Source of the DNA: Cokeromyces recurvatus
Lineage: Eukaryota; Mucoromycota; Mucoromycetes; Mucorales; Mucoraceae
Assembly: GCF_025118155.1 (NCBI RefSeq)
Contig: NW_026251410.1
Span: 310,001 to 374,000, forward strand
DNA length: 64,000 nt
Direction: 5' to 3'
Both the position numbers and the translations under genes were made by a program. Position 1 is the stretch's first letter; each line of letters starts with the position of its first letter. Under the pieces are notes generated by a model, which saw only the letters and a program-made list of their open reading frames with translations, searched no databases and was not told the origin of the DNA. Positions 34,764 through 39,699 of the stretch are shown here, one piece after another.

Positions 34764-35662
34764 ATTTTTATTACTAACATTTACTATTATTATTATTATA
34801 AATAAGCTATATTGGAACATCAAATGATAGACTTTATTATATCGCTTGTGTTATAATATATATGAACCTTTTTATGATATTTGTTATAGAACAAGCTCTG
34901 GATATAAGCATAAATAATATTATAAAAGATGAATTACATAATACAGGACAAACTATAAGCCTGAACATATAATAAAAGATATCATACCTTACTGTATATA
35001 ACATCTTATAAACAATATAATATAAACCCTATTGACATTCAATCATCTAAATGCATCAACTAATAAAGACAACGTATCATTTCTAAATATTTATTTTTAT
35101 AACCTTGACAAAGGATTCAGGTCGTCTTTGATCCAATAAAATAAAAATACAAAAAATATCAGGAACATACACTCAGATCAAACAATAATTTTTTTTTCAC
35201 CCATAGATCTGTCTCTTGAATCAACACAATGTATATCTGAATACTTATCCTTTTTTTTTATAGTTATTTCTATCTCTTTGATTCAGGATTCATTAGCATA
35301 AATACAAGTAGTTGTTTAAACACGAAATAATCTTTATATCATTCTTTTTACATTGAATAAACAAGTCTCAAATCATACTTCCTTTTGTTCTCTTTGTCTT
35401 TCTTTTCTTCTTTAAGCCAAACCATCACATTTACCATGCACATTACTTGAACTCACATTACTGTTATAACTTTTATCAATTATCCTCATATATGTGATAA
35501 GCGACTTTAATGACTTCACTCAATAAAGTAAAAGATTATCCATATCAATTATGGATTTTAGCTTCGTTTGATTGCTGACTAGCAATTAAGAACTTATCAA
35601 AAGCTTCAGCATCCGACATGTTAGAGATACCCAATTTTAATTTTTAGAGACTTATGTGTACA
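34491..35662. other. Intergenic, AT-rich
   Basis: It includes ACT repeats (34590-34618), TTTTA repeats (34635-34662) and an A run of about 40 (34720-34760). A short open frame on minus from about 35620 begins MSDAEAFDKFLIASQQSNEA; it may be another fragment of the decayed gene immediately to the right. Confidence 0.45.
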
Positions 35663-35733
35663 TTAATCAGAAATGAATGATATTTGCTCTAACGTTAGAA
35701 TTCGTTCTGAAAACATCAAAAATAAAAATTGCA

Positions 35734-35764
<31 letters not shown>

Positions 35765-36105
35765 GAAATACGCCCATAACTCTCATTTTAACGATATATA
35801 GCCTCAATCCATAGGTTCTTTGTCTTGTAGAATTCACTAAGGAAGTACCAAATTTGCCTGTTTGGTCATTGTCATAACTTCTAAAGTTTTTATAGCTCTC
35901 TACATATCTTACCCAACTACCAATGTTAAAAGGATTCATAGATCGTTTATCACTTTTATCAGCTTTGGTCACTAATTCAATATCCTTAATATTCTTCCTT
36001 ATTATTAAAGTAGTTATTTTTAATGTTGAATAGCTTATTTGATGTATCAGCTATAACAAGTCTGTCTTCAGTTTCATACCGTTTTTTTTTTTGTTCCTCC
36101 ATCAT
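35663..36105 (-). pseudogene. Decayed gene of unknown family
   Basis: From an ATG at 36105 the minus strand reads through ETEDRLVIADTSNKLFNI, then needs a one-base shift near 36000. It continues with DIELVTKADKSDKRSMNPF, SWVRYVESYKNFRSYDND and STRQRTYGLRLYIVKMRVMG, reaching a poly-A interrupted intron-like gap (35733-35762) and a stop near 35663. The composition is clearly protein-like and the frameshift is the only gross defect. I do not recognise the family; the look is of a multicopy, possibly transposon-linked gene. Confidence 0.45.
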
Positions 36106-36615
36106 TAAAAATTTACTATTTATATTATATTATATTATGTTATTATTATTATTATTATTTTCGTCTATCACTGATGAGTCGATTGTCTCTGAACTAATAT
36201 TTTTTTTTCTTTATCCCAAAACTGTGTTCTATAAAAAGTTGTCTGCTTATTTTTGCCATACAAGTTTTTTTTTTTTTTTATGATAACTTATTCTTTCACG
36301 TTTTTTCATGTACGTCATTGTTTTTTAATTCGTTACATTTAACAACGTCTTCTTGGTTTGTCAATTCTTTACGTATTCTTTCTTCTATTTCAAGTCTTTG
36401 AGTATAATCACACCAGTAGTTTATACTATTTCCTTACTGTTACATATTATAATTTACAAGTATTCTGTAACCGCAACAAGTATGACAGTGGTTCTAAATA
36501 AATAATGTGTAACTTTTTATAGCAATTGTACTACACAATACGTATTAACTTTAGAGCCCATCCTCCTTTCTTTTTCATTTTTTTTTATTTTATATGAGAA
36601 AAAAAAATTATTGAA
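36106..36615. other. Intergenic
   Basis: I see no gene. The DNA is AT-rich with ATT repeats near 36121-36160 and T runs. On minus there may be a few more codons of the decayed gene to the left (a short KEKKILVQRQSTHQ-like stretch), but this cannot be supported. Confidence 0.4.
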
Positions 36616-36969
36616 GAGGTAGTCCTTTATAGTGTAGAGGTGGATTAGATTCTGTTCTTGTTTGCTTCTACTACAGCCGTGTTACTCCCAGGAATTCTCT
36701 CAATGCTGCGGGCTTTCCTCTCTTGCATGGTAGGAAATTACCCCGCGATTTAACAACATCTTTTTATCGACCTCCATTGAAGGCCTGGTGTTGAACATTG
36801 GATCCTGGAAGGTAGCATGTTATCAGCAAAGCTCAGAACTAACCCCGATTTTATTATTTAATCACTCCCATCTACAGCTAACAAAGTTCATCTCTCCATG
36901 ATCGCCGCTTGGCCAACAGAAAGGCGCTACCCTTTCCGATCAAGTCATTTTATTTAACTCAATTTTTTT
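36616..36969. ncRNA. Candidate structured non-coding RNA, long rod with two terminal hairpins
   Basis: This patch is distinctly less AT-rich and free of homopolymers. Seven helices nest in strict order: 36618-36622/36927-36931, 36634-36640/36868-36875, 36642-36653/36835-36844 (10 bp, two bulged A), 36661-36666/36825-36830, 36678-36685/36812-36819 (8 bp), 36688-36693/36803-36808 and 36701-36705/36796-36800. The tip splits into two hairpins, 36708-36719/36732-36746 and 36754-36758/36789-36793. A TAGTGTAGAGG at 36630-36640 fits a Pol III A box, and T7 at 36963-36969 would end a plus transcript; T9 beyond 36610 would end a minus one. The rod with a two-hairpin tip and about 330 nt length recalls SRP RNA, but I see no SRP-specific motif. 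A diverged fold-back element is the alternative. Confidence 0.45.
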
Positions 36970-37339
36970 GTTTATAAACCCAAACTTTTAGGTGTAGTTG
37001 CCGAGTTGTGGTATTCAAAAAAAAATAAATAAAAAACATTTCCCTTTTATGCATGCATTTGCTATAATCTTATATCATCAAACAATATTTTTTAATAAGA
37101 ATTCAACGACCGTCGAAATAAATAGGCATAGTTAGAGTCACTTACTCTTCCTTTATTAAATATTTAACTTAAAGTACCTGGACAAATAGTATAAAGGAAT
37201 GCGGCTTCAACTTATTTATGTATTATACTTTTTCATGTTACATGAACTTAAGGAAGTTGGTACTAAATAGGATTCTGTCGTAACTAATACTTTTCTAATT
37301 CCCCTTTGATTTTAGATATTCTTATATGAATACCTAACT

Positions 37340-37686
37340 GTTAAAATCATAGATAAAACTGTGATATTATTTGTAAAATATCAAGTAAAAAATATTATAA
37401 AATAAAAATAATAAAAAGACAAAAGAAAGTTAAGGAGAGTGAACAATGGTTCTAAAGTCAATCACCTTATTTATGAACTTAAATTGATAGGGTATTTATA
37501 AGAATTGTTGAAGAGGCCTGAAATAAGATGTGAATCAGAAAATTGTTATAGGTAATGAAGTGTTAGAAGTTTTAATATTATTTGATAAAGTGGATCAAGA
37601 GAGTTTTTCAGGGAAATCTAGATAGAATTCCTTGATCTACATGTTTAATCAAGGAACATGACATTATAAGTCAGTTCATGACAAGA
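37340..37686 (+). repeat. Dispersed repeat, copy B
   Basis: Same-orientation partner of the copy at 29410-29796, with scattered substitutions and small gaps. Its TGTGATATT start is at 37360 and the ATGACATTATAA block is at 37658-37669. It carries no coding frame. The two copies are about 7.9 kb apart. Confidence 0.75.
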
Positions 37687-39699
37687 TTAAACACTATTCC
37701 AACTGATAGTTTAAACAGCAATGCAGTCGTGTTTGAATTCATCCGTTGTTTGTTGTATAGTGTTGTGTATATAATGATGTATTACATAATATCTTACAAT
37801 ATACAGATCAGAGTCATGAAGGACTCGAATGATATTTATAGCTATTAGTAGTGCACTTTCTGCATACAATATTATTTGTGAGACATATATGAATTATAGA
37901 CTGTACCTATTAGTTATACACACACATTATTATCTAATATACTAATTTATAAATACAATCATATACTATCTATACACTATACACTATAATAACTTTCATT
38001 CAAGTAGTACATTGAGGAATGACTATAATACAAAGCATCTTCCACAAGTATGAACAAACGAGATCTCGTTATTTGGTTTCAAGAAAAATAACCGAACCGG
38101 CTAGATCGAGCACGACTAATTTAATCAAGGCAAAGACTAGAGCTCAACCATAATATCTTTAATCATTTTATGGGAAATATTCTTCTTTCATTCTGTTCCT
38201 GTCGCAAAGTAACCCCATTCTTCACAAGATATAAAATAAGCATACATTTTGCACTCCTTTTTTAGAGATGCAATTTTTTAATTTATCTCCTTATTCAATT
38301 TTTTAATTCTTATTTTTATTCAATTTATAATAAAAGTTTTTACAAAGTGTTCACAGACTTATTCTATCTTCTTTTTTTTTATCTCTAAACAACAGAAATA
38401 ATAAATAAATAAATAAATAAATAAAAATAAATAAATAAATAATAAAAACAATGATATTAGTCTGGTTCCATTTATGCTTTAAGATTAGAAGTATTGCTGA
38501 GATATAAATGATAGGATTGAGGATTTTCGTAAATCCTAATTATTAGGACCAAGATGGGTTGCGTTGGTTTAAGGTTGTAACAAATTTCTATGCCATCAAA
38601 ATCTTTGATTCGTTTTCTATATTTTTCAACATTTTCTTTGGTATATTTAACAAAGAAAAACATACAAATTGTCTGGACTCTTAATCTTTCCATTATTGAT
38701 TGAAGTTACTAGAAACCTTTAGTAGCCGCTCTAGTGTAGCTCTTACTTTAAAACAGTAAATATATATAAATAGCTGTAGCAAGCTACAAACATATTTGTA
38801 TAGAACAAAACAAGTTACGCTTTTAAACGAATAGTCTATCTGCAACACCCAAGGTAGCTAAAGAGCCCCTTAAGATACAAGGATTAATGAAAAAAAAAGG
38901 GAGGGAGGTAGCAAAGGAAAGAAAAGAAAAGGAAAAATAATAATGCAAGAAATGTATTGTTTGTTGGGGGGAGGAGGAGGAAGGAAAAAAAAAGGAACCG
39001 ACCAAAAAATGTTTTACCCTTGGATTTCTTGGAGTTGAAGATAAGCCTTTAATATGTTGAAGATGTATCAAGTTTATAACTGATCAGCAAACAAACTACT
39101 AGAGTAGATAATTATCACGTTATTGAAGAAGTCTAGGGTTGAAGTGTTAGAAGCAAGTTGAAAAATAAATGATCAAAGGAATATCTATTATCTGAGATAT
39201 TTGAAGTCGTTAATAATGGACTGTAATAATTCTTTGTAAGAGGCTTGAATGGGTAATTAGGTCAAATATCGAGTAAACATTTGGTAGCCTTCTGAAGTAG
39301 TTAACATATAGTCTATGGTAGACATTCGTTACTATAGAATTGAAGATAAAGATACTGCAAGTAAGCAAATAGATTTAGCCTTAGTATTTCCATGTTTATC
39401 TAAACTTTCATTGTAATAACTGCTATTGAAAATAACATCTGAATCTCTTATCATCTAACGAATGAATATCATTATGATTTAATTAACTATTTCTGCATAT
39501 GAATGTGTATTGTTTTTCACCAATTACTGGCCAAAATTTATTTGGTAACTGGCTATCACCAACTTGAAATATAAAATATGATATATACATGAATTGGCCA
39601 AGGTCATCTTATTAAATAAGCTTTCTATCATTAAGGTTAATAAAAATGCTGCATTTAAATAAATCCTTAATAATCTGAAATGAATGCATTATTACAAGG

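Follow-up and report, generated by a model that had tools for sequence, protein, structure and literature searches.

As a rule, SRP (7SL) RNA has a single gene or a small number of them, and the conserved proteins bound by its tips leave it little freedom to change. In Mucorales, the Rfam model used for this RNA is Metazoa_SRP (RF00017). As regards promoters, the U6 gene of yeast uses a TATA element together with a downstream B-box. According to a study including a search of Lichtheimia, this genus has one SRP RNA gene and Rhizopus oryzae has two, and no PSE or TATA motif was found in the Lichtheimia search (PMC4133162). A repeated context has been described for some basidiomycetes (Astraeus, Russula, Lactarius and Auricularia), whose SRP RNA genes are located inside the rDNA (PMC9849065). 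Dispersed elements derived from 7SL RNA are represented by SINE1 (Alu, B1, and the hagfish SINE1-1_EBu), which is stated to be known from primates, rodents, and hagfishes only (PMC10886601; for hagfishes, PMC7245038), the first of these reports also indicating that no 7SL-bearing TRIM had been found.

The DNA analysed here, hereafter the window, is a stretch of 64,000 nucleotides from Cokeromyces recurvatus, corresponding to positions 310001-374000 of contig C17 in a 28.05-Mb assembly of 64 contigs. The relatives listed for one open reading frame of the window include one from Jimgerdemannia flammicorona, at 42% identity, in keeping with a Mucoromycota fungus. A previous sequence-only reading had called attention to the stretch 36616-36969 as a candidate structured RNA placed in a gene desert. 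Indeed, no open reading frame of at least 120 aa is present between 29243 and 40586 in a mechanical list made with the bacterial code and ignoring introns, and the bin 36001-37000 has a GC content of 0.312 vs. 0.278 and 0.266 in the adjoining 1-kb bins, in agreement with the locally GC-richer patch that had been described. The nested complementarity was also recovered, as a long nested rod with tip hairpins that can be folded on either strand. The expected excess of folding energy over dinucleotide shuffles was found for the minus strand (z -2.91, with 0 of 100 shuffles as good), whereas the plus strand was just weakly better than its shuffles (z -1.64, 6 of 100 as good). When the transcribed part alone was folded (36943-36616, minus strand), a z of -2.61 was obtained, with 1 of 100 shuffles as good.

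The gene sits on the minus strand, at approximately 36943-36616, opposite to the strand first proposed, and the A-box promoter that had been read on the plus strand is replaced by promoter-like elements located upstream of the minus-strand gene. The transcript assigned to this SRP-RNA-like gene (36616..36943, minus strand) is approximate at both ends and is based on the folding z and on how a 28-copy profile aligns with the canonical SRP RNA gene of the genome.

This canonical gene is located at C62:511623-511919 and reaches 122.8 bits with RF00017 over the full model, above its gathering threshold, and 53 bits with RF01502 (Fungi_SRP), below the cut-off of that model. It is the sole locus reported in the genome by RF00017, with 26 of 75 candidates scored and a limit of E 10, and by RF01502, with 27 of 40 scored. 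The family to which the window gene belongs remains below the Rfam SRP threshold. The Rfam check suggested by the sequence-only reading gave nothing at gathering score in the whole window, and SRP was not listed in an 801-bp scan of the region or, at E up to 1, in the scan of seven other copies; a marginal match was obtained in a 401-bp scan only, where Metazoa_SRP aligned with 36940-36880 of the minus strand with 19.6 bits (E 0.0039), the gathering score being 70.

The profile built from 28 full-length copies aligns with the C62 gene from end to end (positions 1-331 of 337, 61 bits, E 1.4e-18), and, in the 14 loci of the genome searched with it, the next matches appeared at E 1.2 and 5.3. The identity between the window gene and C62 is 47/57 in the Alu domain and 153/233 aligned positions elsewhere. 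The minus-strand gene is, almost certainly, a full-length divergent paralogue of the SRP RNA, and the resemblance to this RNA that had been perceived has been borne out. It had been suggested that the RNA of this locus could be a divergent form of a housekeeping RNA, or else one not yet described; the kinship with SRP stands, but the single housekeeping SRP RNA is the product of C62. RNase P or MRP RNA, an idea first considered for the plus strand taking into account a P4-like pair and an ACAGAAA motif, was dropped, the matches being on other contigs and the minus strand being SRP-like. The best genome match of RNase P (RF00009) is on C15, with 112.9 bits, and that of RNase MRP (RF00030) on C34, with 40.6 bits, under the cut-off; neither model was listed for the window region in the whole-window, 801-bp, or 401-bp scans. 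As a separate observation, a genome-wide search with RF00001, limited to E values not above 0.001 and with 47 of 295 candidates scored, reported no 5S rRNA, and this RNA may be absent from the assembly or may have been missed by this first look.

The Alu domain (36887..36943, minus strand), comprising helices 2, 3, and 4, is intact as far as its letters and predicted pairs indicate, and its assignment is based on the identity with C62, the helix 3 pairs, and the Metazoa_SRP match. The UGU motif between helices 3 and 4 (36918-36916 in the window) is present in 30/30 rows, and reads UGUUG in the window copy, in agreement with UGUNR. Twenty-five base pairs, belonging to helices 2, 3, and 4 of the Alu domain, distal helix 5, and helix 8a, were placed manually within blocks free of gaps. 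These pairs are standard in the window copy in 24 of 25 cases, and in both the window copy and C62 in 23, and seven of the 25 show double compensatory changes between the two genes (two in helix 3, two in helix 5, and three in helix 8a). Sliding the partners by 1 to 4 positions never gave more than 2 double changes or more than 15 standard pairs, and random redrawing of the changed letters reached the observed value, 9 changed pairs intact out of 10, in 30 of 100000 trials, although this last control is generous because the pairing blocks were picked by eye. Among the 28 copies themselves, the paired positions show no deficit of variation (17 variable columns of 210, vs. 11 of 119 for the unpaired ones).

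In the S domain, the equivalent of helix 6 (CAACA...UGUUG; 36754..36793, minus strand) is aligned with C62 helix 6 in the profile alignment, the helix itself being assigned by hand; GGAG letters occupy the aligned place in the window copy, and the flanking helix of C62, with its GNAR tetraloop context, is not formed in the predicted fold. The equivalent of helix 8 (36708..36746, minus strand) retains helix 8a, paired as GCGGG/CCCGC vs. CUAGG/CCUAG in C62, although its tip is non-canonical. C62 has a canonical helix 6 GGAG loop and a GNRA-capped distal helix 8 with a GAGG/AGCA loop, and by hand comparison with it no clear counterpart of the symmetric loop and GNRA-type loop of helix 8 for SRP54 was found in the window copy. 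Nevertheless, a run of 40 columns in this tip (283-322) is invariant throughout the 28 copies. Moreover, the 5' arm of helix 5 contains approximately 30 nt of extra sequence relative to canonical SRP RNA.

It could be considered that these genes encode working SRP RNA isoforms, which would assemble with all the SRP proteins, bearing an altered helix 8 similar to that of basidiomycetes, and would form an extra or stage-specific SRP. The full-length homology to C62, the conservation of helix 8a and distal helix 5, and the invariance of the helix 8 tip are consistent with such a role, as are the single genomic locus for an SRP54-type M domain, recognised by two exon-like matches separated by 112 bp, and the altered helix 8 known in working SRP RNA of basidiomycetes (PMC4605306). 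However, the distal helix 8 and helix 6 loops of C62 lack a clear counterpart in the window copy, and the genome already has a canonical SRP RNA gene, which makes working isoforms unlikely in our opinion.

The search of the genome with a 391-bp query from the window gave 31 matches. Twenty-eight of them, including that of the window itself, are full-length at 96-100% identity; the others are a copy on C33 at 89%, one on C50 cut by the contig end, and a weak match (C62:511863-511956) overlapping the start of the canonical SRP RNA gene. The family is thus formed by 30 copies on 19 contigs (28 full-length, a degenerate one on C33, and that truncated at C50:1), and the single-copy status previously assumed for the locus was abandoned.

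A PSE-like upstream box of 17 bp, TACCACAACTCGGCAAC, is found at 36997..37013 (minus strand), and is followed at fixed spacing by the TATA element GGGTTTATAAAC (36970..36981, minus strand). In the 28-Mb genome, there are 30 perfect matches to the pattern TACCACAAYTYRGCAAC, corresponding to 29 copies of the SRP-like gene and the canonical SRP RNA gene, and a box with one mismatch was found upstream of each of the two U6 genes detected. The sequence TTTATAA appears 18 bp after the box in 29/30 copies, as well as in the canonical SRP gene and these two U6 genes. Allowing up to two mismatches, 53 box sites were obtained, vs. 27 for a reversed control pattern: 30 perfect, 4 with one mismatch, and 19 with two. 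Besides the two at U6 genes, the one-mismatch sites include one on C4, located before a Tc1/mariner-type transposon (identified by eye), and one on C8; the 8 sites fetched from the 19 with two mismatches resemble transposon sequence on inspection by eye. In the stretches examined, the RNase P and MRP genes are devoid of the box even when two mismatches are allowed, and the promoter pattern is absent from the viral and prokaryote contigs searched.

At the other end of the gene, a run of 9 T on the transcribed strand (36599..36607, minus strand) has the form of a Pol III-type terminator, and at least 6 T are found after CTCTTCAATAA in 29/29 copies that extend so far. A SNAPC3 gene is present in the genome (156.9 bits; this was the sole SNAPc component searched), and its open reading frame matches human SNAPC3 in the PDB (E 3.3e-14). 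The loci relating to U6, the SRP promoter, and SNAPC3 are C31:181402-181594, C64:530722-530914, C62:511919-511988, and C17:84016-84636. Taking into account that the box and TATA layout is common to the SRP-like, canonical SRP, and U6 genes, and that a SNAPC3 gene exists, it can be read as a SNAPc-type Pol III promoter. The layout looks like that of type 3 Pol III promoters (metazoan and plant U6), with which it shares an upstream box at a fixed TATA distance, common to U6 and SRP RNA genes, as well as SNAPC3; unlike them, it belongs to a fungal host. We infer its actual use from this arrangement, and it is very probably a live Pol III promoter.

Most copies lie within several-kb repeated segments. 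In the window, the segment around the gene that is common to most copies extends over 34882..37687, as indicated by identities of 84-90% over long alignments to several of them. The neighbours of the copies are ordinary genes (SPT5, P450, MBOAT, aminotransferase) or transposon open reading frames. In contrast to the common flanks, copy L040 lacks adjoining flank homology on either side, with just 26-37-nt matches at least 190 bp away, L027 and L029 are devoid of downstream flank homology, and L031 of adjoining upstream flank homology. The existence of copies without flank homology on one or both sides suggests that the unit is the gene plus its promoter, moved as DNA.

The left part of the common segment is occupied by a separate interspersed repeat of approximately 530 bp with sharp ends (34882..35413, plus strand), which starts TGTTATAG and has at least 43 matches in the genome (40 of 241 candidates scored), and it occurs at many places lacking the SRP-like gene; in 5/5 fetched loci without an SRP-like gene, homology to the window stops at the ends of this repeat. 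An LTR or TRIM element was also considered, given a sharp left end starting with TG, but this end is that of the separate repeat and the right ends differ between copies, and the idea, though conceivable, is not supported. In the flank of another copy, L038:1670-1738 (plus strand), a snoZ17 match below threshold was observed (25.6 bits vs. 44, E 0.46), which corresponds, placed by eye, to approximately 35930-36000 of the window on the minus strand; possibly, a C/D snoRNA lies beside the SRP-like gene.

The dispersal of the family brings to mind the 7SL-derived SINEs, with which it shares its dispersed condition, its origin from 7SL RNA, and the retention of the Alu domain. A mobile SINE-like family, in which the Alu domain of an SRP-RNA-derived element would serve its own spread via a LINE, as in Alu and B1, could account for thirty copies dispersed on 19 contigs with the Alu domain intact, and open reading frames for reverse transcriptase and endonuclease are found near some copies (L017, L028, L030, and L032). 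Nevertheless, the promoter elements upstream of the transcript are kept in all 29 box-bearing copies, and retroposition of a transcript would not carry them. Unlike in those SINEs, the S domain has been retained, under the same constraint as the Alu part, the promoter is external, long flanks are common to most copies, and the host is a fungus; an unsystematic inspection by eye of where ten copies end showed neither an A-rich tail nor a target-site duplication. We consider spread as a SINE highly improbable. The rDNA-linked SRP RNA genes of fungi also have a repeated context, but the copies of the window family are located on 19 contigs by ordinary genes or transposon remnants, and a separate canonical gene exists besides them.

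To evaluate constraint, pi was calculated in 28 of the 30 copies (all but the degenerate one on C33 and that truncated at C50:1), and the comparison with the flanks was made in the 20 of these 28 whose flank homology extends over the entire stretch. In the 28 copies, pi is 0.0147 in the transcript vs. 0.129 in the box-TATA spacer. A fold-back transposon, for which many copies with divergent arms would be expected, is not in keeping with this value: the copies are many, but their arms are conserved. In the 20 copies with flanks, the transcript has a pi of 0.0134 and the terminator stretch one of 0, vs. 0.028-0.058 over the 150 bp downstream and 0.042-0.096 over approximately 400 bp upstream, so that the transcript is two to seven times less diverged than its nearest flanks; from 36379 downwards pi exceeds 0.13, the alignment being poorer there. 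The S-domain part is under the same constraint as the Alu part. In the same 20 copies, the PSE-like box varies as much as the adjacent sequence (0.041 vs. 0.042), and the value for the TATA element changes with its delimitation (0.0055 for 13 columns in 28 copies, or 0.0434 for 12 columns including the next variable base in 20 copies). The nearest downstream flank is also rather conserved, which slightly lowers confidence in an expressed, selected family.

Gene conversion probably acts as well. L018 (C64:83468) and L017 (C64:185348) differ at 6 gene and promoter columns, their nearest flanks being identical, and the six differences of L018 match letters that other copies have, which points to this process. 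Gene conversion alone could produce part of the low divergence. Divergence of gene and flank are weakly correlated (r 0.26, in 20 long-flank copies, with 120 and 112 of 190 pairs usable). It might be argued from both observations, together with the non-canonical tips of helix 8 and, apparently, helix 6, that the copies are decaying SRP RNA pseudogenes, carried on segmental duplications and kept alike by gene conversion alone. However, the terminator is kept in 29 copies, as is the PSE-like box with its fixed spacing, pi in the transcript is below that of both flanks, and one clearly degenerate copy only, that on C33, exists; decay of this kind appears very unlikely to us. The lower divergence of the transcript suggests selection, which is likely, not proven, in addition to gene conversion.

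Compared with described SRP RNA, the members of the family have full-length homology, the Alu domain, helices 5, 6, and 8a, a Pol III-type terminator, and the promoter layout of the canonical gene of their own genome, and they are unlike it in their thirty dispersed copies, sub-threshold Rfam scores, non-canonical tips of helix 8 and, apparently, helix 6, and longer 5' arm of helix 5. The explanation that we favour is that each copy would be transcribed by Pol III from a promoter external to the transcript, in which the TATA element comes 18 bp after the PSE-like box, with a start approximately 35 bp further on. This promoter would be bound by SNAPc, as would occur for U6 and the canonical SRP RNA in this fungus, and the transcript would end in the T-run. 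The RNA would then fold as an SRP-like rod. With less certainty, its Alu domain would bind SRP9/14-type proteins and dock on ribosomes, and the altered tips of helices 6 and 8 would no longer provide the normal platform for SRP19 and SRP54. The product would be an Alu-domain particle modulating translation, and not a normal targeting particle. The copies would have spread as DNA, mostly in several-kb repeats, and their similarity would be maintained by selection together with gene conversion.

It seems somewhat more probable than not that the family is expressed and under selection, an Alu-type role being its favoured function. That an Alu-type particle is formed is quite possible, though slightly doubtful. 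SRP14 was not found, although the search made for it gave no signal at any locus. The complete proposal, that a second, multi-copy Alu-domain RNA has arisen from SRP RNA, with its own ribosome-docking particle and approximately thirty SNAPc-type promoters, spread and homogenised as DNA, is put forward tentatively, as a conjecture that we would sooner doubt than accept.

In the open-licence literature searched, no report was found of dispersed SRP-RNA-derived genes in fungi, or of an SRP-derived dispersed family outside vertebrates. What would be new here is a dispersed family of SRP-RNA paralogue genes with an external promoter, to which a function can be ascribed by inference. If true, this would be the first family of dispersed RNAs of 7SL origin in an organism other than a vertebrate, and would reveal a PSE/TATA Pol III system in fungi. 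The box and TATA common to U6 and SRP RNA genes, with a SNAPC3 gene in the same genome, make a fungal SNAPc-type promoter directly testable. Such an SRP-like family would parallel, in a fungus, the Alu-type RNAs of vertebrates, and one canonical copy accompanied by thirty near-uniform divergent paralogues would make it possible to ask which function an SRP-like RNA has when it is no longer tied to targeting.
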